Origin: Telopea speciosissima
Lineage: Eukaryota; Streptophyta; Magnoliopsida; Proteales; Proteaceae
DNA length: 64,000 bases
Assembly: GCF_018873765.1 (NCBI RefSeq)
Contig: NC_057919.1
Coordinates: forward strand, 59,743,484-59,807,483
Reading direction: 5' to 3'
Shown: positions 1,722 to 43,619 of the stretch, in pieces
How positions within the stretch are numbered: the stretch's first letter is position 1
Layout: the number at the start of each line of letters is the position of its first letter
Program-made: the position numbers and the translations under genes
The notes under the pieces: generated by a model
Told to the model about the DNA's origin: nothing
Seen by the model: the letters and a program-made list of their open reading frames with translations, nothing else
Databases searched by the model: none

Positions 1722-2676
1722 ATCTCCCACTTGGGCTAGATTAATTACTGAGTCCAAATCAATTGATGTGGCCATGGAATCCCTCTACCTTTATATGTCA
1801 CTACTTTGATTTACTCAATAACATATCATGTTGAATAACAGCAGGAGATATACCTCAATATACAGTATACAACTTTCTGTCATCATAAACATGACACACT
1901 TGTCAAATAAATCGCTTTGAGATGTGTGACCATGAAGCTGAAACTTCATTTAGGTCCTATATCTGATTACAAAATCAGAGTGCCTTAAACAACCTTATAG
2001 GCACATACTTTGATATTAACTAATATTTGGGCAAACCGCCATAACTTTGGGTAAATATCAAACTTTGGCAAACCGCCTGTAACTTTGGCACACCACCTAT
2101 AACTTTGGCAAACCTCCCATGACTTTGGCAAATCGTCTATAACTTTGGCAAACCACCAATGACTGATATATCAGATGAATGAATCAAAATAAATCACACA
2201 TGTGCAAAATAAATGAGCAAGACAACACAATTATAAATAAATAACCATGCTCATATAGATGTCTAAAAAGACAAAAGTAAGGGCAGACCAATACAGTACT
2301 CCCACTAGATAAACATGTCAAAACTCAACAACATTCATACAAGTAAGGGCAGACCAATATAGGACTCCCACTAGACAAACATGTCAAAACTCAACAACAC
2401 TCATACAAGAGATGCGTTTGTTGAACACTCTCACTGGCAACACCTTTGTGAAAGGATCTGCCAACAAGTTGTCAGTCTCAATGTACTCCACAATAGTCCA
2501 CCTTTCACCATGAGATACTCGATCTCAATATCCTTGGAACTGCTAGAACCAAATAGCTGAGGTGTTATCACAATACAACACCATGGGTCTAGCAATGGAA
2601 TCAACAACCCTCAACTCCGAGATGCAACCCCCAAGTCATATAGCTTGCTTTGCAGCCCGAAAAGGGCAATAAAACC

Positions 2677-4785
2677 TCAGACCTGCAAAAGGATTTTGGT
2701 CTTGTTTAAGTATCTCACGACCTTCCTAGCTGCTGTCAAATGTGCTAACCCAGGATCAAACAGAAAGCTCCCTAAAAAAAAATTGATAGCAAAAGCTACA
2801 TCTGGACAAGAACAAACATGTGCATACATCAACCTCCCTATTACGGAAGTATATGGCTTGTTAGCCATGAGACTTCTCTCAATATCACTTCTAGGGCAAT
2901 ATCCTTTATTCAACTTGTCCCTTTACTGATGTGTACCTCACTCCCTGAACTCTGGGACATATTCACTCCCTGAACTCTGGGACATATTGAATATCTTCAG
3001 AACCCTATCAATGTATGCATGCTGGGATAGACCGAAAAAACTTTATCATTTGTTATGAGTAATCACAATCCTAAGAACATAAGTGCTCTCACCTATGTCC
3101 TTCATACTTTAAAGTTTTCTTAAAGAAAACACTTGGTCTCCAAAACACTAATAAATCACTAACTGTCAGTAAGGTGTCATCAACATACAGTACTTAGGAG
3201 ATAAACCTACTCCCACTGACCTTCAGATAGATGCAGTCATCAATGGCATGACATTTTTAGTAAGGCCAATTGATGAAACATTCTGATCAAATTCCAAGTA
3301 CCACTCCCTGGAAACCTGTTTCAACCCATAGATAGACTTCTTTAGTCTACACACCATGTATACCTTCTCCTCTTCTCCAAACCCTTCTGGTTGCCTCGCA
3401 TAGAGTTCCTCAGCCAAATCTCAATTTAGAAAAATAGTCTTTACATCCATCTGATGTAACTCAAGGTCAAAGTGACCTACGATAGTCATTATGATTCTGA
3501 ATGAATCTTTCGTCAAAACAGGAGAAAACTTTCCTTGTAGACAATGCCCTCTCTGAGTGAAACCTTTCGCTACTTGTCTAGTCTTGTAGCGTTCCACCTT
3601 CCCCTGAGAGTCAATATTGGTCTTGAAAAACTACTTTGATGCAATAGCCTTGCATCTCTTAGGAATCTCAATTAATTCTCAAACACCATTTCATTGCCCT
3701 AGCAACAACTCATCCTTAAACCCTTCCAACCATGTTGCAAAGTGTAGACATCTCACCCTCACTCTTAAGAAACTTTACACGGGTAGTCTCACCTCTCTTT
3801 GGGACTTATCTGCTTGGTTTACCAACTACAATCCTCACTCTTAACTGCGGAGTTCTGAGGGGATCCGATGCATTAGTGCTGGTATAATCACATCCAGATG
3901 GATGGGGGTTTATCTTTCCTAAAAAAAAAAGAAATTTGGTAAAACCTAATAGAAAACCTAGCCTCTCAAAGTTACGACCCCAAGACGGTGAGTTGTTTTG
4001 GGGATATCCAGAGAGAGATCGAAGGGCTATAGATTCTATGACCCAGGCTCAGGGAGTAGAATTGATGAGACTACCCGTGTAAAGTTTCTTAAGAGTGAGG
4101 GTGAGATGTCTATACTTTGTAACATGGTTGGAAGGGTTTAAGGATGAGTTGTTGTTAGTGTAGTGAAATGGTGTTTGAGAATTAATTGAGATTCCTTAGA
4201 GATGCAAGGTTGTTGCATCAAAGTAGTTTTTCAAGACCAATATTGACCCTCAGGGGAAGGTGGAATGCAACAAGACTAGACAAGTAGCGAAAGGTTTCAC
4301 TCAGAGAAAACTTTCCTTGTAGACAATGCCCTCTTTGAGTGAAACCTTTTGCTACTTGTCTAGTCTTGTAGCATTCTTCCTTCCCCTGAGGGTCAATATT
4401 GGTCTTGAAAAACTACTTTGATGCAACAGCCTTGCATCTCTGAGGAATCTCAATTAATTCTCAAACACCATTTCACTGTACTAACAACAACTCATCCTTA
4501 AAGCCTTTCAACCATGTTGCAAAGTGCATACATCTTACCCTCACTCTTAAGAAACTTTACACGGATAGTCTCATCAATTCTACTCCCTGAGCTTGGGCCA
4601 TAGAATCTATAACCTTCGATCTCTCTATGGATATCCCCAAAACAACTCACCATCTTGGGGTCGTAACTTTGAGAGGCTAGGTTTTCTAGCAGTCCATGGT
4701 TCAAATGGGGTCTTTTAGCTGACTTGCTTGACATTCTTTTGAGAATGTAAACGACAGTTTGAAGTGTCATACCCCAGAAATACAA
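2677..4785 (-). pseudogene. Copia pol remnants (integrase C-terminus, RT, RNase H side)
   Basis: Minus-strand translation gives Copia pol motifs in the expected order. An integrase C-terminal stretch with YFWG and EGYRFYGP lies at about 4.5-4.8 kb. Reverse transcriptase with KKSIYGLKQVSREWY lies at about 3.2-3.4 kb. A connection/RNase H-side stretch with YTSVIGRLMYAHVCSCPDVAF lies at about 2.7-2.9 kb. The region is fossil, with multiple interruptions and an inverted duplication inside it. Family: Ty1/Copia pol, by motif recognition only. Confidence 0.75.
3520..4690. repeat. Alternating inverted triplication within Copia 1
   Basis: Three copies of one segment of up to about 370 bp lie next to each other in alternating orientation, at about 3520-3800, 3950-4305 (inverted) and 4305-4690. 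The second and third copies are almost back to back, so they form a long near-perfect hairpin. Marker strings such as GGTCTTGAAAAACTACTTTG occur in copies one and three and as the reverse complement in copy two. The segment is Copia integrase/RT-region sequence, so this is a rearrangement within the element rather than a separate insertion. Confidence 0.8.
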
Positions 4786-5879: not shown

Positions 5880-8137
5880 TTCACATTCCTAATCTATGCG
5901 TATTGCAATGCAGTTGTCCTCTTCCATTCCTTATACTTTCCCCAATTAGGGTAGGAACCATAGAAGAAAATTACCCTTAATAAACATTCTTGAGTCACTA
6001 CTACCCAGATAAACACATATTCTAATCTATGAGAGCATAACTTGGGTGTGATATAAACATACCAAAAGAGTAAATTAGCTAGCTCTGGATACAATACAAA
6101 TCACTAGCAACATAAATCACATAAAAATCACAACCGGACTACATCTTTACCCTTTGGGGCATAAAATGTACTGGTTCTTTCATAAAATCACATTTACCAT
6201 AAACAAAAAATAATTTAGCCAGTACAAGGGAAAAGAAAATACCAGCAATATAAACCATAAGAAAGTCACAATCGAACTACATCTTTACCCTTTGGGGCAT
6301 AAGATGCACTGGTCATTTCTGAAAGAAATGATAATTTAGGAATCCTATCACCTTTGGGCATATAGAACCCCTAGACTACCATTCTTTCCTATGCTTGCAT
6401 GTGCATGCACAATTTCTTTAAACTTAGGTAGCATCACCTTTGGGCATATACTACCAACTTTGCTGCCATGGCAGAACTGCAGAGAAACTCGACATGCCAT
6501 TTGGTGGTCAACATCTCATTCCCCTATAGTTCCCATAAAGAAAAAATATGCAGCCAAACAAGTGGAATAATATACATTACATATTTCTAACGCCTTAATG
6601 AGTGCTAATGTGTATGTTATCATGCACAAATAAGAATTTGTCAATATTAAGTCCCCATAAATAACCAGAATAATGTCAGAATCGAAAATTTAAATGCGAA
6701 CACGTAACCCCATAAAGGGATAAATACAAAATTTAAAAAAATGTGCCCTAAAGTTACTGTTTTAACCAACAGAGGGCACCACGAGGTAGGCCTCGAAAAA
6801 ATGAAGCCACAAAGTCCCGGAACAGGCAAAACGGACTGGGCATGAGCTCACATGAGTCGGTCAAAGTTGGAGAGTGATTGTACTTTTCTTAGTCAAACTT
6901 TGGTTCAATTCTGGTTCGGCCTGGTTCAAACTGATCTGGGTGAATTGAATTGAGTAAAAGCTCAACCGGCAGGGTCGACCCATTGGGTCACAAAAGCGGG
7001 TTGGAATTTTGGATCTTGGGTCTCGGGTCAAGTTACCTTGGCCGGGTCAGGAACCTTTGATCGATCCAAAAATGGGTCGGGTTAAGTTGACCGGATCAGA
7101 CTTGACCCATAAGTTAAAGGGTTTTTTTTTTTGTGTTTTTGCTTTTACCTTTTTTTAACTTTTTACTATCTTTTTACTTTGACCTTTTAAACTTTTAAAA
7201 CTTTGGAAATCCGTTTTCAAATGTTTGACTTACCTTTTTTGTCTTTTTTAAACAAAAGTAATAAGAAGAAGGTATATTCCTTCTTCTTCTCCAAACTTCA
7301 AAATACCCATTAACACATGATGCTGTGGTTTTCAAAAAGGAACAAACAAATCCGCTACTTGCGGCAACGATTCTGGAAGTGCGCCCAGTCTGCCGGCAGC
7401 AACCGCTAGCACTCTCCCGAAAAATCCTCCCTACTCTGCTGAAATCCATAAGAAATAACCCCTTTTTTTTAAAAGAAATTTAAAACTGTGGTAAAAACGG
7501 CGACTATGGGCTGCTATGCAGTCCACCGCTGGCAAGGCCACCGCCCTAGGAGTGCTCGCCGGACTCTGACGACACCACCAGTCTTCAAATGCTTGAAAGC
7601 CCTCTCCTGACCGGCTGAAAATCCATCCTCTTTTGCGGTTTTGTTTGTTTTTTTTGAACCCTTCTTCTATCTCAACCAGAAAGGGAGTATTAATTCGGAT
7701 GTAGGAATATCCTTGAAGGGCCGAGACATGTTACAGTTATTCACTTGGTATCCAAATGGATTAAAATTGAACGGGGCTTACGATCCTGTGGCTAATTTTA
7801 TTTTTTTTAAGGAACCTCGAACAGAAACTGTTAGAACCCACCCTAATGGGTTTTGAGATCTGCAGGCCTCTTTAGCGGCGACGACCAGGATATGACCAAA
7901 GATGCCTGGTTTTCCTGGTCAAAACCAGCGTACCCGACCCCGATTTTATTCTTTTAATTTTTCAAAAAACCTTTGCACTATCGGCCAAAAGAAATAAAAA
8001 TGACGTAATCCTTTAATCCTCTTAATTATTAAAATAAACGATAAATCTGGTTTGTGCTGGCTCCCATTCTTTCTTTATTTTCAATCGAACAAACAAATCC
8101 CAATTGGGCAGCGAAAACGTATGGTTTAAAAAATTTA
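5880..8137 (-). other. Copia 1 untranslated leader, first part
   Basis: No convincing coding region was seen. The stretch resembles the leader of the second Copia at 54240-55660: both contain CACCTTTGGGCAT-like strings, and both contain a run of GGGTC/GACCC-rich repeats (here about 6960-7110). The MULE interrupts it at 8138 and it resumes at 18258-18300 before the primer-binding site. It is therefore leader DNA between the LTR and the coding part. Confidence 0.6.
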
Positions 8138-8600
8138 GGATTTTTTACAATTACCATTCCAAAAACTTTACTATCTACCATTACCCCCCTAAAAACTTTG
8201 AAACAACTGTTACCCCCCGTGCTGCATACTAATAACCAACTGGCCCCGCCGTTATAGACCTGTAACGGTGGGGGTTAGTCGTGAGGGTTTGTCATTGTCA
8301 CGATTTTATTAGGACCAAAATACCCTTAGTAGTGAAATAAACCATTGTCACAGATTTGTTAGGACTAAAATGCCCTTAGTAGTGAAATAAACCCTATTTC
8401 GAAGGATATCTTCACTTTCTCTTCACTTCATCCTCTTCGCTTCATCCTCTGCGCTTCACCTGCTGCTGCAAACTAGAGGAAGAAGAAGGAGTTCGTCTCA
8501 GCCCTCTTCTCAGGCCACGATTTCTTCCACCGTATAGAGAGGTGCCACCGTTAAAGGAAAAAACGCATTTGATTGCTCTCTGAGAAGGGAAGAGAGAAGT
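8138..8600 (+). repeat. Left terminal inverted repeat of the MULE
   Basis: About 463 bp pair with 17742-18248 in opposite orientation, with a few small gaps, one being an expanded G run in the right copy. Just inside it, 8598-8680 is an imperfect direct repeat of the inner TIR sequence (TCAGCCCTCTTCTCAGGCCA occurs twice). In MuDR-type elements the TIRs act as promoters; here the left TIR would drive the GRF gene. That last point is inference. Confidence 0.88.
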
Positions 8601-9833
8601 GAAACCGGAGGAAGAAGAAGAACTTATCTCAGCCCTCTTCTCAGGCCACGATTTTAGTCCTCTCTGGTTTAACTATCTCCATCGTCTCAGGTGACATTGC
8701 AATTTCCGACGAAGTTAAGGTAATACATTCTTGTCTTCTTCTCCTTATTTTCTCTCTTCGATTAGGGCATAAAATCACAATGTCTTGCTGTACCCTTTTG
8801 ATGTTTGTTGTAGATGAAATTACCCAGCCCATCTAATTAGTCTTCTACTCCCGGTATCCTTGTCCTTGTGGTATTGAGTGTTACTCTTTCTTGGAGCATT
8901 CTCTTCTCTCCTTTTTTTCCTCACTTCTTCTACATTGTTAGCACTGGTTTTCTGTATTCGGTATTGTTTCAATTTTTTACACACCGAGATGCCCCTCTAC
9001 ACTTGCTGTTACAGGTAATGCAGAACTTTGCAAATGATAGCATAGCCTTCAGGAAAAACAACAACAAACCATAATTACAAAGAAAAATACCAAATAGAGT
9101 GGGTCTTGACAGCATGAAACCATCAGGAGAGAAATAGTTAAGCAAAAGTTTAAGAAAAAATTGAGTTTCATGTCAGAACTGTTTTCACAAGGAAAGAGAA
9201 GAGAAAGCACAACATGGCATAGGGAGGCTGAAACATGAACACAAGGATTAAAGGAAATTCAACATACATTTTACATCAATCAACAAATGAATCAAATGGC
9301 CCTGATGCCCAGGTAAACATGAGCTGAGTAAGAAGAAATGTGTATAATGAGAGGGGGTGGGGGTTGAAATTCCCCAAAAGAAGAAAGAATTTCTGATGAT
9401 CTCCAAAACTAGATAGAAAAATCCACTGTAATTACTTAGTTAAAGAAGTAACCTGAACTGGTAGACCTGCATACTTCTTGGATGTAATGTGTTTTTCTTG
9501 TGCTTTACTTTCTCTTCTTTAGTCTCTTGCCTTAGATATTGTTTATTTTCTTGTCCTCCACCAGTTACATTTTTATTTTGGTGAGATGGAACCCATTCCT
9601 TTGATATCTCATTCTGTTGAATGTACATTAATTTTGCTTCCATTCTTTGAAATACCAAGTAATAGAAGGTGAGCTTATCTATTATAGCCTTAACTGCCCA
9701 TTTATGAGCAGTTGACACCTCTCCCTTAGACTTCTTAACAAGGCACATAGATTGAAAATACATGAAATACTTCTTTGTTTAAAAAGGAAATAATTAATGT
9801 ATGACTTGTTCTCCTGGAATGTTTGCAGGTAAG

Positions 9834-10217
9834 ATGTCATCTGGGAGTGTGAATAGCGGTTGTGCAAGGTGGGTGAGGTTCCAAAACATGCAATGTTATT
9901 GCCGGAGGAGATCTGCTGTGAGTATATCAGAGTCAATGGACAACCCAGATAGGCTGTATTATATTTGTTTCAACAGAGACAATGGTGGTTGCAGATTCTT
10001 CAGATGTGCAGTACCCATTGGTGAAACAAGCCAATCTGTGCATGCTAGTGATGCACCAAACAATGAAGGTGAAATAGAGCAACAGAGAAGTGAAGAGATT
10101 GGTAGTCTGAATATTAGATTGAATACTGTGGAGAAGACTGTAGCAATAATGAAGATCACAAATCAGGTAGTAATAGTTCTGATTGTATTGTACTGTATTT
10201 GGAATGTAGTGATTTAA
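9834..10217 (+). CDS. GRF-type zinc-finger protein with C-terminal membrane anchor
   Basis: The predicted protein has 127 residues from the ATG at 9834. This start is preferred to the one at 9801 because a splice-acceptor-like TTTGCAG ends five bases upstream. Residues about 20-62 fit the GRF zinc-finger layout: CYCRRRS, then RLYYICF, then GGCRFFRC, giving the Cys/Cys/Cys spacing and aromatic residues of the family. A short acidic linker and a heptad-like stretch follow (about residues 80-105). The protein ends in a hydrophobic segment, VVIVLIVLYCIWNVVI, a likely tail anchor. AATAAA lies at 10381. GRF fingers are known to bind single-stranded nucleic acid in some proteins; a role here is inference. 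The frame is intact, unlike the transposase of the same element. Confidence 0.75.
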   Translation: MSSGSVNSGCARWVRFQNMQCYCRRRSAVSISESMDNPDRLYYICFNRDNGGCRFFRCAVPIGETSQSVHASDAPNNEGEIEQQRSEEIGSLNIRLNTVEKTVAIMKITNQVVIVLIVLYCIWNVVI

Positions 10218-10477
10218 GTCTGGGAATTTCAAAGTCATTTTGTTGAAGTCTATTTTGGTTAATCTTGGGTTGGAATCATGGATGTTTTTTAGTTTTAGGT
10301 TGTAATGATGGATGTTAATTATGGTTGAATATTGTAGTAAAATAGCATCTTGTGAACTGTTCTCTGTTATCAGAATATGTAATAAAGTAGCATCTTGTGA
10401 ACTTCTTCCTGCAACCATTTTGCCGACTTTAATGTCATGAGAATCAAAAGATCAGCCCCTGATGGAAGTGCATTGTG

Positions 10478-11446
10478 CTAATGATTTAAAGAGGGGCTGC
10501 TTTTGAATTGAATACCAGGAGAGGACTCCTACAGCTGTTATAATTAGTTTCATTAGATAGGTTTCTATTGGGATTGTTTCTGTTTTGGTTTTATTATGCA
10601 ATCTGAAATTAGAGGGTAGGTTAGGATTTAATTTCCTAGATAGATTAGGATTTTATTTGATTTTGTGAGAAGCCTTGAAAGGGTGAAAAGCCCGGGAGAG
10701 AGGGAGAGACTCAATCCAAATCTATCCTACCTTATTTTATCTTCTTCGAATTTTCTTTTTATTTTCCAATCGGCTTTGTGGGAGATCTGTATTCTGAAGT
10801 CTACTGCAATCTAAGGCTTAACTGCAGTGTTGGAATTCTGTAACCAGTCACTACAAGAAGCCGTATTGAGTTCCAATTAATTGCTGATTAAAGAACCCTC
10901 AAAATAGCGTATGTGGTTCGGTTTTCTATGGTGTTTTGCTGAGATCTCCACTGCTAGACAGTACATCGATCCTACTGTAGGATTGGTTCTTAGTTGAACT
11001 AGTTCCTACATTAGTTAGAACCCAAGAACTCAGATCATAGCCTCTGTCTGATACACTGATTATTAGAAGGATGGATAGATCAGAAAAGTTATAATCAGAA
11101 TTCAAATAAAGAACTAATGTGAGGTCCTAATGTTGGCCACTTAACCACAGTAATAGGTGGGTAGCTCTCCACATTCCAAAAGCAATAATTAGTAGAAATT
11201 TGGCTTCTTTTCACCAAGAACAATCCCTTACTCCTAAAACCACCAGCTCCGACAGAATACACTCGCTCTTTGATTAAACACCAATCATTCTAACACAAAA
11301 AACCAGTAAATTCATTCAAGGCAAGCACAGATTAAAAAAAAGAGATCTATCTAACTAACCCAAAATTCCACTAATTAAAACAGAAACAGATCCCAATAGA
11401 AACCTATCTAATGAAACTAATGATTTAAAGAGGGGCTGCTTTTGAA
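10478..11446. repeat. Insertion-like block bounded by 30-bp direct repeats in the MULE
   Basis: A 30-bp direct repeat containing ATGATTTAAAGAGGGGCTGC occurs at 10478-10507 and 11417-11446. Between them, about 45 bp near each end are inverted copies (10545-10590 against 11376-11419, both with CCCAATAGAAACCTATCTA in one orientation). The interior of about 910 bp has no coding frame of note. Direct repeats this long are not an ordinary target duplication. A small nested element or a template-switch rearrangement are both possible. Confidence 0.5.
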
Positions 11447-12628
11447 GTGAAAATCTGCACTTTGCTATCCAATATTTTTCACAAAGATGTGAAATCTCAT
11501 GTCTGCAATTCCCTCAAACACACCACAAATATATGCTTTACATGTTAGAGAGAACCCAACAAAACACATTAGGCTAAAATCTTATACTTAAGAAGAAGAC
11601 AAACAATTACATGTACAGATTATAGCAAGAATAGATAGAAAATTACTTTTGATCTGCTCATCAGATCAACTCAATATTTTAGGGCATTGAATCCCTCTCT
11701 GGGTAGGTCCTTCGACCATGGTATGAAGTTGATACAAGCTGCTGATGTGAAGTAATTCATAATCACCTAACAACCTGCAATGCCCTGTTTCTGGAAATTT
11801 TCTGGCAGATTTTTCTTCTTACAATTAATCCAAATCTGTCCATATATAGATGGGCAGTACCCATATACAGGCAAGACCTTTTGCTTTGAAGGTTCCTTAT
11901 CAGAAGGAACTGTAGTCTGTATTGGTCACATGTGCAGCTTCCCCTGTTTCAGTTTTGATAAATGATTATAAAGCATCCTGAATGACTCGGATTCACATGA
12001 CTTCTCTTCGTCTCGAGTTCGCCCACCAATTCAAACTTCAAAAGAACAAAAAGGATCTAATTTCCAGTATCAGAAGTAAAACAATAGATCTAACAGAAAA
12101 ATGTTCTCCAGGAGGGTTAAAAAAACAAGTACATAGTCTCTCTATAAAAACATGAAAATCAACAGCTCAATTCATGATTGTCCTTGAACAGCAAATAAAA
12201 AATAGCACAGAGAACCTCAAACACAGAGATTCATAAATAAAGTTACTGAAAATCAAGTCCAAAGAGCAGCATAGCAGTCAAGCCCCAAATAAGTCAAGAA
12301 CCACAGTAGGAGTACATGTAAATAGTCTCTCTAAAAAAGTCACAATGAAATTACAAAGACCCATTGTACTTAAAAATGTTACAAACAACCTATGACCCTG
12401 CACCTTAATACCAGCCCAACCCCAAGACATAATTGTAAATCCGAAAGACATGGTTGCAGCATCTCATTGAAGTTGGCTCCTCAGCTCAAGATCACCTCAC
12501 CATACCTACAAGTGATGAAACAAATTCCAAGTGACCAACTATACTTAAGTAAATGTTAAATGTTTGTTTTAAATAAATCAAGTTAATCAAGTTTTACACC
12601 CCATTGATAATTAGTAGGACTCATACCA

Positions 12629-12802
12629 TTATTGTTGTGGGTTTGCTCTTCTGAATGCTATAACCTTTGCAGACTTGGCAGCCATTTTTCCCTTTACCTT
12701 CTCTTGTGCACACACAATGTCTGAAGTTGTAGTAGATTGCTGTGAGGACCTGGTTACCCTCTGTGAAGAGGTAGCATCATCATCCCTATTGTTTCTCTTT
12801 CT
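12629..12802 (-). CDS. Possible last exon of the MULE transposase
   Basis: On the minus strand an acceptor-like TTTTTTTAG is followed by about 57 codons rich in Arg, Lys, Ser and Thr (RKRNNRDDD at the start), ending in TAA. Placing it as a C-terminal exon would replace the end seen at 12848. The donor is not clear: a GTTATG at about 12878 gives a different phase. A basic Ser/Thr-rich tail is common in MULE transposases, but this exon is uncertain. Confidence 0.35.
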   Translation of the reverse strand, partial: RKRNNRDDDATSSQRVTRSSQQSTTTSDIVCAQEKVKGKMAAKSAKVIAFRRANPQQ

Positions 12803-12847
12803 CTAAAAAAAGACAAGAACAAAAATATTACATTCTACATAGTTTTA

Positions 12848-15746
12848 TCATGCAAAACTAAATATAACATTGAGTATGTTATCATGCCATAACATAGGAG
12901 CACTGCGAGAAGTGGATGGTCTCTTGTCTTTATACTTGCAAGTCCTCTTGTTATGATCAGTACCTCCACAGAGTTGACATTTGATACTCCTTGTCTTCTT
13001 CCTTGAATTGTATGGGGCTGCCTCATCTGGTTCTCTTCTCCTACTCATACGAGGTCTATCAATCCCCCTCTTTAATATTGGAGGAAGCAAGTCAGTCTCT
13101 TGTAGTGTACTAAGATCACTCATTGGGTAAATGATTTCTTGATAGGCCATTAAATATCTTTTTGTGGTGTAAGTTGGATCGCAATAGTCTTCTAAAGTTC
13201 CCCTATAATTTGGAATGCAAACTCCAGCATGTTTACAAGGTAACCCCGTTGCTACCCACACCCCACACTCACAAGTTGACTCAGTCATGCTAACAACATA
13301 TCTTAGGCCAGATCCATCTTGTATCTCAAACAGCTCCCTACCTGCTAAAATGGGTACATAGTGCCTCATACCCTTCTGTACTGCCTCCAGTTTCTCACAA
13401 ATTGTTGGAGTCAGCCTTGTGACACTAGTTAAGCCACTCTCATACCTTTTATGTAACATTTTCATCATCTTCACTCTAAGACCATCCACCAAAGTAAGGA
13501 TAGGCTTACTCCTCAAGGGTCCTACCCAATGATTGAATGACTCAGTACAGTTGTTGGTGATGTGGTCACTTTTGGCTCTATGATCAAAAGCATGTATTGC
13601 CCACTTCGGTACTGGTGTCTTCATCAACCAATCATAGACCCCTTCATTATCTTCTTTCATTTCATTCATAGTCTTTTGGAATCCATAGGCATTTTATGAT
13701 TTGCATGCAACCCAGAACTGACTCCTCAGTTGAATGCCACTACCCCGTCGTGACTTAAAGTTATTGTATAGGTGTCTGCAACAATGCCTATGGTGTGCCT
13801 CAGGGAATAATTTTACAATAGCTTCAATAAGACCCTATATATGAAAAGAATATTCACTAGTCATAAAATCACAAATATAATGTCAATGATATTAGTCATA
13901 CCTTCTGTTTATCTGTTATAAATGTATATGGAAGTCCAGTAGGTGTGACTAGACCTATGGCATCATGTAAGCAACTGAGAAAGAATAACCAACTGTCAGT
14001 GGATTCATTCTCAAGCACACCGTAAGCAACTGGATACATGCCATTGTTTCCATCCAATGAAACAGCAAATACAAGAACTCCACCATTTATTCTCTTCAAA
14101 TGACATCCATCAAGGCCCAAGAATGGTCTGCATCCCTTCAAAAAACCTTGAACACAAGCATTAAAACATACAAACAAACGCCTGAACTGACAATCTACTC
14201 TATATTCATCTCTGAATAATTCACTCTCAACCAGTCCATGTTGGAATCCATTATGATATTCTATTGCTACTTGATTCCCAACATTTGCTCTCATTATCAT
14301 ATCTGCATAACTTTCTAGTCTCCTAAATGATTTTCTATGACTTGAACTATCTTCCCCTAGGGTAATCCATTTAGCCCTATACAATTGTATATTGTAGGTG
14401 TCCAATGAATACTGATCACTCAACAGTTGTTCCATGATTTTCAGACTCATATCTGGGTCCGATCTAATTTTGGACCCAATCTTTCCTGCTATCCAACGTG
14501 CACTTACTTCCTTATTTCTAACCAATTTCATACATGTGTGAGTGGGAGTAAATGCCTTGATAGCAAATGTAATGCCATCTTTTAAACATGAAGCATATAT
14601 CTTCCATGGACACCTTTTTCCTACACAAATTACACTCACCTTTTTGCTCTCATTTTTTATCTTCAATGTTTTAAAACATTCTTGCACTTCATAATCCTTC
14701 AGAACTTCTCTAAAGTGCTGCCCATTCCTGAACAATTATCTAACTGCCAAATGGATCCTATTGCTTGGATCTCTCACTATATCAGACTGAGTGTCATAAT
14801 CCTCTTCCTCACCATTTGATCCCTCTTTATTGTTCTCTTCCTCTTCTGCATCACTTCCAAATTCTTTATAGTCTTCATCACAACTCTCTGAACTGTCACT
14901 TAAATCATCAGATTCTCCAGCTACATAATCAAAATCTGATGTGTCATTGTTCACTTCCTATTCCTCACCCTCAAGTACCCTGCTAGCTGATGGATTGGTT
15001 GGATCAGGTGATGAAATGATTGCATCATTACTTCCCAACTCTATAGTGGTAGTAGTAGTTGTAGTAGATCTCTCAATACTAGCACTCCTACACCTACTAG
15101 ACATACCAACTTCAGTAAAAGCAACCCCACTATCATGCATAACTGCAGAACTCCTATTGTCAAATGTGACTCAGTTATGAGATGCATTAGTTGACCCAAG
15201 AACAACAGTCCGACTGCTATTATGCATCAGAATAGCACCACCCTTCTGAACATTCATGTCACCATCCCTTTGAATATTTCTGAAACCATCCCTTTGAGGA
15301 TTACTGAGGCCACCCCTTCTTATATTAGCTTTTGTCCTAGTACTTATAGACATATCAGTAAGTGGAACAGCTGGAAATGGTGCTCCAATCTCTGGTCTAT
15401 TTCTTGCAGTATCACCCACAAACTTGACATGGTGTCCTTTGATGGTAACATTATCAGTGTTGTTACCAACTTGGACATTGTAGACATACATGTGGATACA
15501 ATCCACCTGAGTACCAAGCATGTCTACCATTTCCATCACATCTTTATCTGTCTTCACTACCATATCTTTCATCTTGTCAACTGTCAACTATTTGACATTA
15601 AAGTCCACAGATCTCCCTTTGGGAACAGTACTCAAAAGTGAGTTATATATGTCAGATATCATATCTAGGTAACCATATCGTTCAACATCAATAATCTTTG
15701 TAAATGTGCCTTAAAGATAGTGGTACTGTACTTCAGTCGTTGTCAT
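12848..15746 (-). pseudogene. mudrA-like: MURA-type MULE transposase, disabled
   Basis: The gene reads leftward from an ATG at 15746. In order it holds an N-terminal region containing VERYGYLDMISDIY, an acidic Asp/Glu/Ser-rich linker (about 14740-14950), a MuDR DNA-binding region (VGKRCPWKIYASCLKDG), and the MULE transposase core. Candidate catalytic residues are Asp in FLGLDGCHLKR, Asp in FITDKQKGL and Glu in CTESFN. A SWIM zinc finger (CECGVWVATGLPCKH) and a CCHC knuckle (CQLCGGTDHNKRTC) follow. A 67-bp intron is likely at 13835-13901 (donor GTATGA, acceptor ATATAG). About 1.85 kb of exon 1 keeps one frame but has in-frame stops at 15711, 15588, 15171, 14958 and 14736; exon 2 has one at 13694. 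A further short C-terminal exon may lie at 12629-12802. Confidence 0.88.
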
Positions 15747-17741
15747 CTTGAAGATTAGAGACTGTTTGGCTGCATGGTATATGGATTTTATAGAAAAGTG
15801 GGAGAAGCAACAATTAATCACATTAGTCAAGAACAGTCATTAAAATTCAAATTTGACAAATTACATCCAAGTATCAATATTATTTGATAAACTTCTCAAC
15901 TAAAGAAACAAATACAAGATTATCCATTAAGTCAGGTACAAATTTATATAAAGTTCTTCACAACACTAAATGGAAAAGAAGGGAAGACGTCAGGGCCATT
16001 TATAAGTCACACGAATGGTATATTCAGTCTGTGGTAATGTAGGACAGATTTGATTATTGAGCGTAATTGCATTTGAGATCCAAATCTGGATTTTGAGATT
16101 GCATTACATATTCTTAAAGACCATGGAACAGCCTTACTGAAGGCCCTGTTGGCATTTTCCTGACCCAATAATTACATGATGAGAAAAATGCATCTTTCTA
16201 CAAACTATAAGATGCATCAGCATAAGAGAAAGACTAAGAGAAAAAAAGAGAGCATTTATCTACTTACAAAGCACACAATCTATGCACACTCATGTAGTCC
16301 AATGTGTAAATTATCATACTAGTAATCAAGTTGCAGACTTCCTCTCAAGATCACATACATGATTCCAGGGAGACTTAATAGACAAACAAAGCAACAATCC
16401 TAAACACAACAAAATGCAACATTCAGAAAATTTATCATTACAATTATCTCTTATCATTACTGTGTTAAACACACAGTAATCTTCCAATCATTCTTAGTCA
16501 TGTCCCCAAAGAGAATCAACAACTGGATTAGCTTCTATTTTCATTTCTATAATTCCAATAACCTGTAGTGCAACAAGGAAAGTAAAATTCCCCTCCCCCA
16601 ATGGGAACTTGGTGGAAGATGAAAGGGAAACAAGTGTTATAAAAAAGAGTTGCAAGTAATACTTGCATATTTGGGTGCAACCAAAGAAGCTAGAAGAAAA
16701 AGGAAAAGAGTAAGCAAGTCCTAATCACGCAGCCACATCAAACTCCAAATAAATTTCATTCATTCCATTCCAAATGAGAATCATTGGCTTACATGCTGTA
16801 ATATAGAATCAAACAAAAGAAGTCCTAATCCTATCCTAAAACTGAAAACAAAAGTTAAAATCTCAACTCCTACGGTATCCAAGTTTCTAATTGCAATTAC
16901 AAAATAACTAATCTATCTCCTACAATTCTATCAACAAGAATATAATAATAAAATTAAATTTACAAAAATCTCTAATTAATCCATCGTGTAACTGCATCTC
17001 TTATCTTCTTATTTCAGTTCAATTAAAATTTTAGGGTAGTTCCTTCTTGCGCACCACTTTTTTTTTTTATTTCTGATTTAGTTCATTCAAGTTTAATAGT
17101 CTTGTTGCTGTTCTGTTTTAAACATCATCTAGTTTTTGTTATGGTTATGATCTTTAATCACTGATTTGTTGAAGTTAAAAAATTCATGTTTTCTTGGTGT
17201 GATTTCAGGTTTCGTAGCTGAGATCAAACTCTTCTAGAAATCTCAGATTCTGGTTCTGTTTTAAGATCTATTTTCTGACTTCATTTGCAGATCAGATCTT
17301 AGGAATGGAAGCAACCAGTCGGCGACAATTCATTGAAAAATCTATATTTGCAGTAACATAAATACATAATAACTTAGGCGCTGTGGGCCATCTGCAATCT
17401 AGTGATTCACACCCACTAACCGAACAAAGGTCCCAAAAGAATGGAAAATCAAAGTGACAGAACATTAAAGTTATCCATTGAACCATTCTCATCATCCTGG
17501 GTTCCTTTTCAAGTCCAACTTCTATTCGATTAGCTCACCTTGAATAGAGGCTATTAAATTGGGGTTTACAAAACAGATCAAGACTACTTCCAAACAAAGC
17601 AACAGCGAGACTTCTACAGGGTAACAGATCACCTCAATTGACAGTAAATCTTTTCAAAAAATTCAAAACGAATTGAAATTTCAGTTGAAAAACCTTAGTT
17701 CTTAGCGAGTTTGAGCCGAAAAATATACCTTTGTCCTTGCT
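15747..17741. other. MULE interior between transposase start and right TIR
   Basis: No coding region is supported here. The DNA is A/T-rich and would form the 5' untranslated region and possible 5' introns of the transposase transcript, which probably starts in or near the right TIR. No promoter element could be fixed with confidence. Confidence 0.5.
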
Positions 17742-18248
17742 CGCTTCTCTCTTCCCTTCTCAGAGAGCAATCAACTGTGTTTTTTCCTTCTGTCCTACTC
17801 CGAGAGCTTTAACGGTGGCACCTCTCTATCCTTTTATACTCCTGAAGAAATCGTGGCCTAAGAAGAGGGCTGAGACGAACTCCTTCTTCTTCCTCTGGTT
17901 TGCAGCAGTAGGTGAAGCGCAGAGGATGAAGCGAAGAGGATGAAGTGAAGAGAAAGTGAAGATATCCTTCGAAATAGGGTTTATTTCACTACTAAGGGCA
18001 TTTTAGTCCTAACAAATTTATGACAATGGTTTATTTCACTACTAAGGATATATTTTGGTCCTAATAAAATCGTGACAATGGAAAACCATCATGACTAACC
18101 CCCACTGTTACAGGTCTGTAACGGCGGGGGCCAGTTGGTTATTAGTATGCAGAATGGGGGGTAACAGTTGTTTCAAAGTTTTTTTTTTGGGGGGGGGGGG
18201 GATAATGGTAGATAGTAAAGTTTTTGGGCTGGTAATTGTAAAAAACCC
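17742..18248 (-). repeat. Right terminal inverted repeat of the MULE
   Basis: It is the reverse-complement partner of 8138-8600, ending at the 9-bp duplication AAAAATTTA (18249-18257). It contains a short G run (about 18189-18201) and a small extra segment (about 17785-17805) lacking in the left copy. It is the likely promoter end for the transposase gene. Confidence 0.88.
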
Positions 18249-18300
18249 AAAAATTTATTGGTGTAAAAACTCCATTGTTGATTCGAAATCATGTGGGAAG

Positions 18301-33499: not shown

Positions 33500-36358
33500 T
33501 CAAAGAGAAGCTTGAATAATTTCTTCTTCTTCCATGACTGTACTACAGCCTTCTGTCCACCATTCTTTCCTACTGACGATGACGAGTAACCCATCTGGGT
33601 TTCGTACATGGAGAGGATCTTTCTTTAACTTCGGACAATTTCTGACAAGCACTTCTCTTATAAGGGGACAATACAAGATGATATCATTGGTGCACACATC
33701 AGTTAGTGTTGGTAGTTCTTCTAGATATATTCTTGTCAGTCTTGGAAACGGTGAGATGACTTCTTCCAGCTTCTCTGCTTCAACTAGTATTTCGATTCTC
33801 TCACAATCGGTGACTAGAATTTGCTCCAAATTGTTGAACACGCATCGCATTTCCTTGGTGAAGATCTTCTTCAAGCTATTGCATTGCACTATTACTATCT
33901 CAAATAATTGACCAAAGCAATTAAGTGGTGAAAGACTACTCAGTTTTGGCAATCTTATCAACCATAACCTCTCAAAAGAATTTTGGTTATGGTACACCTT
34001 CTCTGCTCCATCCAACACATCCTCCATGTTTTCACAGTTTATTAATGTAGTTCTTCCACCACCAATGCACATACCTGTCACACCCTTGCAATCCTCAATA
34101 TATATGTCTTGTAGATTTTGGGATTCACTGAGACCTTGTAGAACATCTTGTTTTATGACTCTGCAACCGGTCATATCCAAATTCATAATCTTATTGGCCA
34201 AAGGTTTTGAACCAATCAGAAATTATGATATTTTGGAAGGAAATGGAAAGAGATGTTAAATTGGTCAAGTTGGACAACTCCCCCACATCAATCATATTGA
34301 TCATGGAGTCACAGTTACTACTACTAGTAGACCCATGTTCATCATCTTCAACATTGATCACTTTCCATTTTATTTTAAATGCTCCATACAGTCTCAAATC
34401 CTCTAGTTTGTGCAAACAAGAAATTACCCCTGGTGGAATAGAAACTTTGGAATTTTGCACATCCAAGTATCTTAAATTACTTAAACCTCCCACACATTCA
34501 ATTCCAATGATTTGCTGGTCTAACATTTCACAATAACACAAATCTAAAACTTCTAGCCATCGGAACATTCCCAGTTTGGGCAATGCTCTCAAACTTCGAC
34601 ACCACCTTAACCTAAGAACCCGAAGATTCACCAAACATGACAAGGAATCTGGGAGATATTCCAATGTCAGTGTGTAAGAAAGATCAAATACTCTTAAGAT
34701 TAACCATGTGTTGCAAGAAATTTGGCTCTGGAATAACAGTGCAGATCCTATTATTCCTGAATTGGAAAGTGGATAGTTTTTGGCACATCTCTTCCAACTT
34801 CGGCAACTCCTTAATTTGCGTATCTATTAGAGATACCCATGTTGCATCGACCCACTCATGAGCCTGTGGTGCCTTTTTAACTGATCCACCAGTTCTTATC
34901 ACAAACTTGCTGAGGTTACTCCCATCAGAGTACTCTAAAGAAGCAATCCAAAGTGCGAGTTCTCGCATCATATCATGCATCCTTACCCAATTTTTTTCCT
35001 CTCCATCTTCCAACATGCAAGCAATTTTCAAACTTCCAAGCAGAGCCTCACCTTTATTCCTAGCATCTGTTAGACTACCCAATCTATCTTCTAATCCCTC
35101 TCCAAAGCAGTAATTTAATATCTCATATTCGCTTATGATATGGTCTTCGGGGAAGCAAGCACAATAAAGAAATAGACTCTTAAGCATATTATTCTCCAAT
35201 ATATCAAAACTGAACTTTAAAGGAACCAGCACTTCTTTTATCATACCTCGGAGATCTGTGGCTGATACCTTCATTTCCCTTACAGCATTAGCCCACTCCC
35301 TGACTCCATGTCGATTCACCATTGCACGAGCAACAGTGACGATTGCAAGGGGAAGACCATCACACCTTTCAACAATTTGTTCAGCAAGACGTTTTAGATC
35401 ATCAACAGCAACATGTTCACCAGCTTTCTTAACGAAGAACATCCACGACTCCTCATCAGTTAATGGCTTCACTTTTATTTTTTTACTTGCACCCATATCA
35501 GTGCAAGTATCTTGATTTCGACTGATTACAAGAATCTTGCTCTCTTTATCATTTGGAAGTTGAGGGATTCCGACATTCTCGAGCTTTAATTCGCACCACA
35601 CATCATCCAAAATTAGAAGAAATTTCTTCTTACTTAAGGCTTCGTACAATGCATCAGAGTCGCTATTATCTGGTAATCCAAGACGCTTACCGATACTAGT
35701 TTGAATACTTGGTATGTTGGGAGTGGCAGATACTCTGATCATTATCACGATCTCAAAACAAGAATTTTTTTTGAAGTGATTATTTAATTGTTTGACCAGA
35801 GTTGTTTTACCCACTCCCCCCATACCGTATACTCCAATGATACCAATGTGAGGATCAAGTATGCAATCAAGCATCTCCCGCAACGTGCATTGAGTTGATG
35901 GCTGGTTCTCGATTATTGCCTCGGTTTGCATATCTATCACAGACTTTGGAGAAGGTGGCCTTGCGACATCAAATTTTATGTTTTCCAACCGATCAAGAAC
36001 TTTTTTCTTAAGATCTACAGACTTCTTGCTCAACTTGTAGAGTGACCAGCAATTTACACACCAACCCGCTGCACACTTTCGTTGATCATACTTCTCTTCT
36101 ATATCACCGGTTTCCTCTTCGATTTTTCGAACGGCGTCGAACCAATCCTTTGCTACTTCATCCTCAGCTTGTCCAGCGTTTTCTGCTGCTTTTAAGATGT
36201 GTAGCTTACTTTTCTTTGTTGCCTTAAAGACAATCAACCTCGATTCGCAGGTGCTTGACATTGTCTGAGGAGTTTGTCAAGTACTTTATCTGTTGAACAA
36301 GAGGATTAATCAAATAAATATCGATAATATTTGCTAAGTCCCCAACATTGAAACTCAT
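33500..36358 (-). pseudogene. CC-NBS-LRR resistance gene, copy B, nearly full length
   Basis: Coiled-coil NLRs are cytoplasmic immune receptors that bind nucleotide and detect pathogen effectors. In order: a coiled-coil start MSFNVGDLANIID at 36358; P-loop GVYGMGGVGKTTL at about 35.82 kb; kinase-2 KKFLLILDDVW at about 35.61 kb; GLPLAIVTVARAM at about 35.35 kb; MHD as RMHDMMRELALWI at about 34.98 kb; leucine-rich repeats from 34.66 to 33.55 kb, ending in an acidic tail. Length would be about 950 residues, normal for the family. The frame shifts by one base near 36229, 34695 and 34207; each fits an extra base in a run of two or three T or A. The ATG at 36261 (MSSTCESR) is out of the ancestral upstream frame and is probably not the real start. 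Related to RPS2/RPS5-type genes by motif style. Confidence 0.88.
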
Positions 36359-39500: not shown

Positions 39501-42500
39501 CTAACAAAATCTATACGTACACCACCCCAAAGCATCATCTAACAACCGCCCATTTAAAGAGGGGGGAAGGATAGAGTTCCAATAAGTAGTAGAAGTATTC
39601 TTTGCCGAGGATTTGGCCAAGAGATCCGCTACATGATTAGCCTCGCGGAAACAATGACTAATCTTCCAATCAATTGAGTTCAAGAAGGGCCGGGTCGCGA
39701 GCCACATCTGACGCACCTGCCAGGGGATGAGACCACCTTTAAAAGCCATCCAGACCGCCGCAAAATTGCACGCAATCCACAGTCGAGAGACACCCTTCTC
39801 CATGGCCAGGCGAATCCCATACAGAATAGCCCAAAATTCTACCAAAAAATTTGAGGAAATCCCCAAAAAGATGCCAAACGCCCCAATGGGAACCGCCTTA
39901 TCATCTCGCAAAATACCTCCAGCTCCAGCCCTGCCTGGATTGCCCAAGGAGCGCCCGTCCGAGTTCAACTTAACCCAACCTTCCGGTGGTCTACACCACC
40001 ACACTTCCCTAACCACTTGAGCTGGCCGAGAAATAATGGGAATTTGGAGCACACGAGCACAGATCAAGTCCTGTTGGTTAAAGGCTGGCCTTTTGAAAGA
40101 AGGCAAAATGTCCTTGATGGAATTTAGAAGAGCATGGAAAGAGGCAGCCCTAGACCTCTCCCTAGCCTCAAACACTCTGTCATTTCGCTCCCCCCAGATT
40201 AAGAATGGGATCAGAACCACCCCAACAAACCAAACACTAGGCAACGACACCACCTTAGCTTTTAAGCCCCACCACAAAACAAGCTCCTCAAAGGACAACA
40301 CAACCGGCCAATGCATACCAAAAAATCCCAAGAAAAACTTCCATAGAGACACTGCGAACTCACAGCTTAAAAATAAATGTGAAAGAGATTCAAAATCACT
40401 ACGACAAAGAGCACACCTGGAAGCAAGATAAAACCCCTTCAAACGCAGCGCCTCCTCAGTAGGGATTTTACGAAGCAACAATCTCCAAGCAAAAATAGAA
40501 TGACGAGGGAGTAGGGCTGGATTCCAAACCACCTTTCCCCAAGAGACGCAGGGGTGCTTGAGCGTAAAGACTCCCACGTCGAATTAGAAGCACAAATACC
40601 CGAGAGGGAAGGGCCCTAACAACATTCATCAGCCACATTGCAGGTGGGCAGGGGCACCTTATGGATGTCGTCAAACAGTCTCTTAAGGGAGGCAGATTGG
40701 ACTTGAGGAAAAGACCATGCAGAGTCCTTAATAAAATCTGAGATTTTAGCCTGCTTGCCTTCAAACCAACTCTGTGGCAGCCCTGAAGCCTCAGCAATTG
40801 AAGAGCACCCAAACCAATGGTCATTCCAAAAATTAATCAAGGTCCCATCACCAACAACCCATCTCTTATTGCGCTGCAACACCGACCAAACTCTCCTGAT
40901 CCCCGGCAGAATGGAAGAGGGAGAGGAAAGGGTTTTAAGCCTCCCAAAACCATCAACAAACCGGCTACGCAAGAAATTACTAACCAGGTTATTCCCATGC
41001 TTTATAGACCACGTTAATTTGCAGAGGAGAGCAGCAAATTAACCCGCCTTCAGCTTTTGGTCTGCAAACCAGATCCCACTTAGACACCACCAGCTTCCTC
41101 GATTCAATGTCGCCAGACCAGATGAAATTACGGATCCATTTCTCCATAATTGAGATCAGCGAAGAAGGCCACCAATAAACTGAGAAGTTGTGGATAGGTA
41201 TGCTCAGCATGACTGATTTCACAAGCTCCACCCGACCTACCAAAGAAAGGAGCTTCCCCTTCCACCCTGCAAGCCTGCTTTTGAATTTATCAACTAGAGG
41301 GAGGACCATAGCCGAAGTAACCCTCCCTTTGAAGATTTCCACCCCTAGGTATTTCATGGGGAGAGAGCAAAGAGGAACTGACAGCACCTATGAAATTCTG
41401 CGCTTTCTCGAAGGGGTGATAGCACCACAAAACAGTTTGCTTTTTTCAAGATTCATCTTCTGGCCAGAGAAGTTTTGATAATTTTCAAGAAAATCCTTCA
41501 ATGCCCGAACATACATGAGGGAACCATTACAGAAGATAAAAACATCATCAGCAAACAAGAGGAAAACAGGCGTTTGTACCTCCCTAGGGCCTTTCAGGGG
41601 CAGAATCTGCTGCATTTCCACCAATCTTTTCAAGCCTCTACACAACACCTCCTCGGCAAGAATGAAAAGAAGAGGGGAGAGGGGGTCACCCTGACGTAGA
41701 CCCCTTTCCACCCCAAAGAAGCTAACAGGCCCACCATTCACCAAAACCAAGATACGAGTGGAGGAAAGGAGCTGCTGCAACCAGGCCACCCAGCGCTCAC
41801 TAAAGCCAAATTTTCTCAAGACTTTGAATAGAAAATCCCAAGAGAGGGATTCATAGGCTTTGGAGATGTCTAACTTCAGCCCAATGCCGCCACCTCTCAC
41901 TGATTTGTGCATTAAATTCGCTAACTCCGACGCCAGGCAGATATTAGAAAAAATCACTTTGCCTTTCTGAAATGCTCCTTGCTCCTCTAAGATCAGGCGG
42001 GGCAGCAGATCCCTAAGCCTATTAACTAGAATCTTCGAGATGATTTTACAGATAAAGTTGCCCATGCAAATAGGATGAAATTTCTCCAAAGAAACAACCC
42101 CCTCCACCTTAGGAATTAAGGAAATAAAGCAATTATTCACTCCTTCAGGGATAATACCTTCTTTGAAGAAGCTAGTGACCACTCGGCAGACATCCACCTC
42201 ATTGATATCCCAATAATGCCTAAAGAAGGCCCCCTGGAAGCCATCAGGGCTAGGTGAGCTTTCCGGTTTGAGGTCCCACATAGCCTTCTTAATTTCACTG
42301 GACTCTGGCACAACATCCAACACCAAAAGATCACTATCACCAATCAGGGAGCGAATCACATTTAGCAGCTCCAAGTGCTCCTCAAGGGGGACAGCCCTAT
42401 GGAAATTTTCAAAGAAGCCGGAAATTAGATTCGCTACCTCCCCCGGATCCGACACCCACGCACCCTCCTCATTCTTAATGCCATGAATCTGCGCCTGGGA

Positions 42501-43619
42501 TCTCTTGATCAAGGTAGAGAGGTGGAAAATTTTTGAGTTACGATCCCCTTCTTTCAGCCACTTAATTCTCGATTTTTCCCTCCACAATTTTTCACAATTC
42601 TTCAGGGCATTCAAATAGGCCGTCTTAGAATCCGCCTCCATACCAAACAGGACATCATTCACCCCAATGGATTCCAAAGCCTCCTGAGTGTCCTTAAGCA
42701 CCACCTTGACCTCTTTGAGTTCTGAGTCAAAGTTTGGGAACTCCCCTCGGGCCCAAGACCAAAGCACAGGCTTCAAGCATTTGAGCTTCTGACTAAAGGT
42801 ATACATGGGAGTGCCTCTAATTGGAAGAGCCTAAGATTGCTTGACCACCTCCAAGAAGTTCGGGCTTTCAGTCCAAAATTTGTGAAACCTGAAAGGGACA
42901 TTTTTTGACCTTCCCAGCTGACCAGAAGAGATGAGAAATGGAGAATGATCAGACGCCACCCTCTAAAGTACTAATTGGCCACAAGTTTGGAACACATCCA
43001 ACCACCTAGCATTGCAAAGACCATGGTCCAAGATAGCATCCACCGTGCCTCTTCTCCTATTATTTGACCAAGTGAATTTATTACCTGTTGATTTAATGGA
43101 CAAGAGAGAACACGAATCAATCATACCACCGAACTCTAGGGTCGACCCCAAAGAGAAAGAACCCGGGCCACGTTTCTCACTAGAAAGCAAAGTGGCATTG
43201 AAATCCCCAACTACTAACCACGGCAACCCTAGCACATTCAAGGCCGTCAACTCCATCCAGAGATTTCTGTGAATTGCTCTAAAACAGCTCGCATGCACCA
43301 CCGAAACAACTGCCTTGCCCCTATTCCAGTTCAAGGATATAGAAATCTGCTGATCAGACGACGAGAGAACACTAGGCTTCTGGATACCTAGTTTCCAAAC
43401 CACCCACAAGTTAGGAACAACCCCCACCCGATCATTAGATATCAAATCAGCCACATAACCCAATTTATTAATGAAGAAGAGAACTGGGAATTTACTCAAC
43501 TCCACCCCCAGCTCCGCAACACACACTACCTCCGGACTGTGGTTCTTAATCAGAGACGCCAAGGCCACATGGCTTGCCTTCTTCCTAATCCCCTTAATGT
43601 TCCAATAAAGGACCTTCAT
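39501..43619 (-). pseudogene. LINE 1 ORF2: endonuclease, RT and RNase H
   Basis: Start MKVLYWNIKGIRK. The N-terminal endonuclease has LGLPWLVVGDFNATL and KFTWSNNRRRGTVDAILD, with the Asn/Asp residues of the EEP fold. The RT has GFQGAFFRHYWD, FISLIPKVEG, GLRQGDPLSPLLF and the catalytic FADDVFIFC. After it come a zinc-binding stretch (YLASRCALCRSDFESLSHLF) and a C-terminal RNase H (LNSDGRSLGNPGRAGAGGIL, HVADLLAKSS). Stops interrupt one otherwise constant frame at 42963, about 42834 and 41388; the frame then shifts between about 41040 and 40989 and again between 40616 and 40577. ORF2 provides nicking and reverse transcription of the LINE. Confidence 0.9.

Follow-up and report, generated by a model that had tools for sequence, protein, structure and literature searches.

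A GRF zinc-ribbon gene recurs tail to tail with the transposase gene in MuDR-type Mutator-like elements of Telopea speciosissima

What might explain the presence of a small, intact zinc-ribbon gene beside a broken transposase gene in a plant transposon? The stretch of Telopea speciosissima DNA analyzed here (the window, 64,000 nucleotides of NC_057919.1, from position 59,743,484 to 59,807,483) contains at its positions 8138-18248 a MuDR-type Mutator-like element (MULE), a full-length but dead copy bounded by terminal inverted repeats (TIRs) and a target-site duplication (TSD). A transposase gene is read leftward within it and a gene for a GRF-type zinc-ribbon protein rightward, and the two genes converge, their ends 2.6 kb apart. 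The parts of the element, in window positions, are these.

8129..8137, no strand: left copy of the 9-bp TSD, AAAAATTTA
8138..8602, plus strand: left TIR, from pairwise TIR alignment; related TIRs occur in family members
8720..8721, plus strand: possible splice donor AAG/GTAATA of a putative non-coding first exon
9827..9828, plus strand: splice-acceptor-like AG, five bases ahead of the GRF ATG; recurs in most other loci compared
9834..10217, plus strand: GRF zinc-ribbon gene, 127 codons and a stop, intact
10478..11451, no strand: probable nested insertion, a block of about 0.97 kb between 35-bp direct repeats; close to the block's ends lies a 35-bp inverted repeat
12848..13836, minus strand: second coding exon of the transposase, with a SWIM zinc finger followed by a CCHC knuckle (by eye) and one in-frame stop; upstream boundary approximate
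13899..15746, minus strand: first coding exon of the transposase, with MuDR DNA-binding and MULE domains and five in-frame stops; a sister copy supplied the boundaries, which are approximate
17741..18248, minus strand: right TIR, from pairwise TIR alignment
18249..18257, no strand: right copy of the TSD, AAAAATTTA, a perfect match to the left copy

Long TIRs and a TSD of 8-11 bp are hallmarks of MULE/MuDR elements, and maize MuDR likewise has long TIRs and 9-bp duplications. The left TIR (465 bases) and the reverse complement of the right one (508 bases) are 86.6% identical over 508 alignment columns with 43 gaps. The transposase possesses the three domains expected of the MuDR type: the DNA-binding domain PF03108 (E 7.2e-9) and the SWIM domain PF04434 (E 9e-6) both score above their cut-offs, and the MULE catalytic domain PF10551 is matched at E 6.1e-6 with 27.0 bits against a cut-off of 27.6. 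The six in-frame stops, five in the first exon (15713, 15590, 15173, 14960 and 14738) and one in the second (13696), were located, like the exon limits, by comparison with a sister copy in which the first exon is an open frame; further stop codons at 13898 and 13837 sit in the presumed intron, and at 13898 the open frame of the sister copy ends too. An earlier note, made from the letters of the sequence, had described a 10.1-kb element with long TIRs and a perfect 9-bp duplication, a leftward MURA-type transposase with six stops, and a rightward, intact gene for a 127-residue GRF-type protein with a heptad-like stretch and a hydrophobic C-terminal end, and each part of that description held. 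Between the two genes, the direct repeats and the inverted repeat of the probable nested insertion each have one mismatch, and the gap between transposase and GRF gene is similarly lengthened in the copies at C2:21131769 and C2:21211648.

The TIR family has other members in the host, the single plant genome (823 Mb) to which this analysis applies. A search with the left TIR matched 46 pieces there, right ends counted too. When ten further copies were read for 81 bases at each end, eight were found to have perfect 9-bp TSDs, each different and A+T-rich, one had an imperfect duplication of poly-T with a mismatch, and one had no detectable TSD; other copies of the family have moved as units. GRF matches at least 79% like that of the window were found at 32 loci (the window included), and at 22 of these a transposase match on the opposite strand is listed within 6 kb. 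The earlier note had named as damaging to its reading the finding of other TIR-family copies without the GRF gene; this was not borne out, with the possible exception of the copy at C9:7739883-7752365, which has a transposase match and no GRF gene among the matches listed. One 6.2-kb copy, L129 (C2:7775800-7782060), has both TIRs, a perfect TSD (by eye), the GRF region and a 5' part of the transposase corresponding to window positions 14787-15929, and it gave no match to the transposase pieces 13896-14735 and 12848-13669. Since L129 has its TIRs and a perfect TSD and is without the catalytic and SWIM parts, a derivative that keeps the GRF region has therefore moved. In three near copies with no transposase listed (L014, L015 and L017, one of which lies in L129), the window's start codon and second cysteine are changed. 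These changes fit relaxed constraint, and the three look like one sub-lineage that was perhaps amplified.

To what extent does the pair of genes extend beyond this family? In a first pass the genome was searched with the GRF protein and the transposase exon, adjacent hits being merged, and later searches used the Pfam GRF family, a second transposase and a second GRF protein; the new rows from the last two (34 and 53, respectively) were selected by eye, and a few may have been overlooked. The first GRF protein search counted 151 matches and listed 150. Transposase and GRF loci are the matches listed, so that a locus said to be unpaired has no partner among the matches listed. The first pass gave at least 139 transposase loci, of which 78 had a GRF locus tail to tail within 15 kb, one head to head and 60 none. 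In the merged lists there are at least 173 transposase loci and at least 283 GRF loci; within 6 kb, 115 of the 173 are paired convergently, one divergently and 57 are unpaired, and extending the distance to 15 kb changes these numbers to 118, one and 54. Orientation is therefore convergent in 115 of 116 listed pairs within 6 kb, and the gap between the matched pieces has a median of 2,608 bp and a 10th-90th percentile range of 2,079-3,737 bp. If 283 GRF loci were placed without relation to the transposases, the chance of a transposase locus having one within 6 kb would be about 0.0045, compared with the 116 of 173 observed. A control set of the 150 best PF10551 loci, none overlapping the first transposase set, was checked against 230 GRF loci rather than the later 283: two had a GRF locus within 6 kb and five within 15 kb, whereas with the same 230 GRF loci 82 of the 139 transposase loci are convergently paired within 6 kb. 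The pairs reach lineages only about 30-55% alike in the GRF protein, well outside the TIR family of the window, and the GRF gene is evidently not a lone captured host fragment peculiar to this copy, the second outcome that the earlier note had set against itself. Three 145-codon GRF frames of equal score lie at C3:34238091, C6:58252312 and C9:57097409, and the first of these stands, at a distance of 4 kb, head to head with a control-set MULE-type transposase that has a 1024-codon open frame. In one divergent element (L107) an additional frame of 311 codons, at positions 2255-3187, lies between the transposase and the GRF gene and is possibly captured or retroelement-like.

The two genes have also diverged together. 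Distance matrices of GRF and transposase from 41 pairs are correlated with a Mantel r of 0.95 (none of 2000 permutations as high), and the 20 divergent pairs alone give an r of 0.90 (again 0 of 2000). Trees were built from 23 of the 41 pairs, consisting of three of the 21 near pairs and all 20 divergent ones. The GRF and transposase trees have 12 of 20 branches in common, compared with a mean of 0.26 and a maximum of 3 with shuffled labels; all nine GRF branches with support of at least 0.9 recur in the transposase tree, with zero well-supported conflicts. The earlier note had proposed a comparison of synonymous and nonsynonymous changes, and across five lineage pairs the ratio of nonsynonymous to synonymous divergence (dN/dS) in the GRF gene is 0.33 (Fisher p 2.5e-5), 0.46 (p 0.0023), 0.66 (p 0.084), 0.28 (p 0.39) and 0.63 (p 0.37), and in the partner transposase, in the same order, 0.34 (p 1.9e-10), 0.30 (p 2e-13), 0.43 (p 0.0011), 1.03 (p 0.54) and 0.58 (p 0.075). 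In the GRF gene dN is thus clearly below dS in two of the five; on the GRF tree the paths of these first two lineage pairs are disjoint, which they are not on the transposase tree. For near copies the GRF gene has a median dN/dS of 0.34 and the transposase exon one of 0.59, the pairs being non-independent; the medians omit pairs that share fewer than 60 codons or have dS outside a set range, and stop and gap codons were skipped. The intact GRF frame of the window, which the earlier note had taken as a sign of either recent selection or chance, was set aside as a sign of selection by itself because the gene is short, and constraint within the recent family, being modest, was given no weight in the argument.

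The GRF protein exhibits a common build across these lineages. In the window it consists of a zinc ribbon at residues 20-57, a linker, a heptad-like helix from about residue 81 and a hydrophobic C-terminal tail at about 104-127. It matches PF06839 at E 7.8e-5 with 23.1 bits, just below the Pfam cut-off of 25.9. For alignment (A1), 19 proteins of at least 33% identity to that of the window were selected for open frames. All 19 match PF06839 at E 0.1 or less (best E 1.9e-10), with any other Pfam family found in at most three, and all are 127-147 residues long with a single finger and have the same order of parts: a short start containing V6 and N7, then the zinc ribbon, a linker that varies, the helix and the hydrophobic end. 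The four zinc cysteines are intact in the window protein and at 36 of 41 loci. In the window helix, L92, L96, V99, V103 and M106 have, by eye, a heptad-like 4-3-4-3 hydrophobic spacing. The C-terminal 19 residues have a Kyte-Doolittle mean of 1.90-3.71 in all 19 aligned open frames, with 0-7 residues beyond the peak, so that by hydropathy each protein has the single hydrophobic segment at the extreme C terminus that is typical of tail-anchored proteins. A predicted structure of the window protein shows the ribbon as three strands and residues 81-126 as a helix, with a mean pLDDT of 58.6 and block means of 77-91 at residues 101-127 and 61-67 at residues 21-60. By sequence, the nearest solved relatives are the GRF fingers of NEIL3 (E 6.9e-7); prion chains in the same search, at E 0.02 and above, were discarded as chance matches. 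A fold search with the predicted model gave nothing at E 0.001, and the NEIL3 GRF, ranked top at a non-significant E of 0.69, is consistent with the sequence match and no more. Viral and prokaryote contigs searched for relatives gave 28 and 7 pattern matches, respectively, none confirmed. Directly ahead of the ATG, most of the loci compared have an acceptor-like AG/G, often CAG/GTAAG, even where the upstream sequence differs (L001 and L003). Such a site would suit a putative non-coding first exon nearer the TIR.

It follows from the recurrence of the pair, from the agreement of the matrices and trees and from the excess of synonymous change in two of five lineage pairs that the GRF gene is, very probably, an accessory gene of long standing that is co-inherited and occupies the position of mudrB, and not a fresh capture. 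The window's element is a dead member of a MULE family in the MuDR clade, the fuller form of which has two convergent genes. The suggestion of the earlier note that the GRF gene is an accessory gene of its lineage is thereby supported by recurrent convergent pairs and congruent trees; its further suggestion that the gene replaces mudrB stands as a description of layout, convergent in nearly every listed pair, and of layout only. Several observations weigh against co-inheritance as a useful partner of the transposase. Of the 173 transposase loci 57 are unpaired among the matches listed, and of four such loci that were sampled two have no GRF gene in the approximately 4.5-4.9 kb downstream; in the other two there is a GRF frame, convergent and similarly built (at E 1.3e-28 in L105, and at E 3e-20 in L107, where the stretch read ends within the frame). 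Likewise, 167 of the 283 GRF loci have no transposase among the matches listed within 6 kb. The second transposase and the second GRF protein used as queries were taken from loci whose pairing was already known or had been found, a choice that favours the share of pairs, and the control PF10551 loci, being the best-scoring, may include domesticated host genes. Distances among the 21 recent copies are not significantly correlated (r 0.21, 227 of 2000 permutations), for which little divergence and private decay may be responsible, exchange between copies being the alternative. Constraint on the GRF gene is not significant in three of the five lineage pairs, the last two of which have too little divergence, and in a test of distinct changes among recent copies the synonymous excess is modest (reached in 126 of 5000 simulations for GRF and 189 of 5000 for the transposase). 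The predicted structure is of low confidence overall, and the membrane anchor is read from hydropathy. Finally, rice Abermu elements without a reverse open reading frame (ORF) are described as looking recently active (PMC9168764), so that such genes may be dispensable.

How does this arrangement compare with known systems? Maize MuDR also has a transposase gene and an oppositely transcribed second gene (PMC9168764); the Telopea elements have a GRF zinc-ribbon gene in that place, and the likeness to mudrB described here is one of layout. Reports of mudrB are confined to Zea (PMC3276141), and the gene is required for new insertions in maize (PMC9168764). The Abermu elements of grasses are MULEs near MuDR with a reverse ORF, ORFR, of unknown function, placed in type II between ORF1 and the 3' TIR; unlike the proteins described here, which are of one build, those encoded by ORFR are dissimilar between distant species, and the word GRF is absent from the main text of that study, the comparison being by description (PMC9168764). 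Plant MULE groups 42-50 are of the MuDR type, many with 9-bp duplications, and extra motifs, often in antisense, are recorded for them; the extra motif is mostly PMD, itself often in antisense orientation, and GRF occurs 0 times in the main text of the survey, for which 1631 sequences were collected (PMC6446971). The VANDAL elements (vanA, vanB and vanC) are also MULEs with accessory genes, although some have no TIRs and VANC is an anti-silencing factor (PMC6446971); here too the comparison is by description and not by accessory sequence. The NEIL3 GRF fingers (7omk and 7jl5) share the zinc-ribbon sequence, but NEIL3 is a large repair enzyme with two such fingers, whereas the MULE protein has one finger and a hydrophobic tail. 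A literature search, judged by its listings and with supplements and Repbase notes outside it, found no paper linking GRF-type proteins to MULEs or other transposons.

What, then, might the GRF protein do? It most likely helps the element itself, because it has accompanied the transposase in descent for much of the history of the clade in the Telopea genome, and we consider a two-gene MuDR-clade MULE family in which the GRF protein aids the element to be the probable explanation as a whole. NEIL3 GRF binds single-stranded and forked DNA (PMC9266487), and by analogy the zinc ribbon would bind exposed single-stranded or forked DNA. The helix could pair two GRF protein chains, and the tail, judging from its hydropathy, would fix the dimer to a membrane on the side of the nucleoplasm or the cytosol. 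At the nuclear envelope the protein might then retain the transposon ends, or the transposase with its DNA, and favour re-insertion, the stage at which mudrB acts in maize. This role as an insertion helper, drawn by analogy, is a tentative proposal that we hold to be possible rather than likely. Anti-silencing and self-restraint are live rivals to it. The GRF protein could be an anti-silencing factor like VANC of the Arabidopsis VANDAL elements instead of a helper in strand transfer: MULE accessory genes can have such a role (PMC6446971), and a factor acting in trans could persist in derivatives that have lost most of the transposase, such as L129. However, the domain that Pfam assigns to all 19 aligned proteins is GRF, and a hydrophobic tail would be unexpected in a factor working on the chromatin of the element, which makes this role unlikely. 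Rather less likely still is that the protein restrains its own transposase, for example by holding transposase or DNA at a membrane away from targets. The tail-anchor-like end together with the zinc ribbon would suit such a role, as would the keeping of the GRF region in L129, where the transposase no longer has its catalytic part; yet the retention of a pure inhibitor across many lineages is harder to explain, although self-limitation is possible. Passive cargo, a host fragment captured by a copy or family in the manner of Pack-MULEs, is very improbable. MULEs are known to take up host genes, the intactness of so short a frame means little, and constraint in the recent family is weak; but a Pack-MULE capture is recent, confined to one copy or family and without a transposase, whereas the GRF gene recurs beside transposases, and a single recent capture is ruled out by the pairing across lineages little more than half alike at most, by the congruent trees and by dN clearly below dS in two of the five lineage pairs. 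An ancient capture that has become functional is compatible with the accessory gene that we favour. That the pairing arises from a mere density of GRF genes and MULEs in the same regions, numerous as both are, is ruled out by the orientation, the narrow gap and the control set.

The remainder of the window contains two minus-strand NB-ARC resistance-gene frames, at 34684-36261 and 51017-51787, which are alike by eye and of which the second is split over two frames. Frames of LINE-type reverse transcriptase and endonuclease, of a copia-type gag and of another retrotransposon gag lie at 41388-42806 (minus), 42963-43619 (minus), 47279-47857 (plus), 53529-54116 (minus) and 61243-61866 (plus).

What the second gene of MuDR-type elements does, and where it came from, is an open question: maize requires mudrB for insertion and reports of the gene are confined to Zea, while Abermu reverse ORFs, the origin and function of which are themselves posed as open questions, look unrelated from one distant species to another (PMC3276141 and PMC9168764). 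With a recognizable domain in this position, co-inherited with the transposase across many lineages within one genome, the question becomes biochemically testable. It is conceivable, though we think it improbable, that a large share of plant MuDR-clade MULEs are two-gene systems whose GRF protein, tail-anchored and able to bind single strands, serves to dock the transposition complex at the nuclear envelope, that the reverse ORFs of other MULEs, which change fast, and perhaps mudrB too, are members or replacements of the same part, and that many small plant annotations of GRF-type host genes would be transposon genes. Many small GRF-type proteins are annotated as host genes in plants, and the pairing of GRF and transposase genes offers a means to separate transposon genes from host genes among them.

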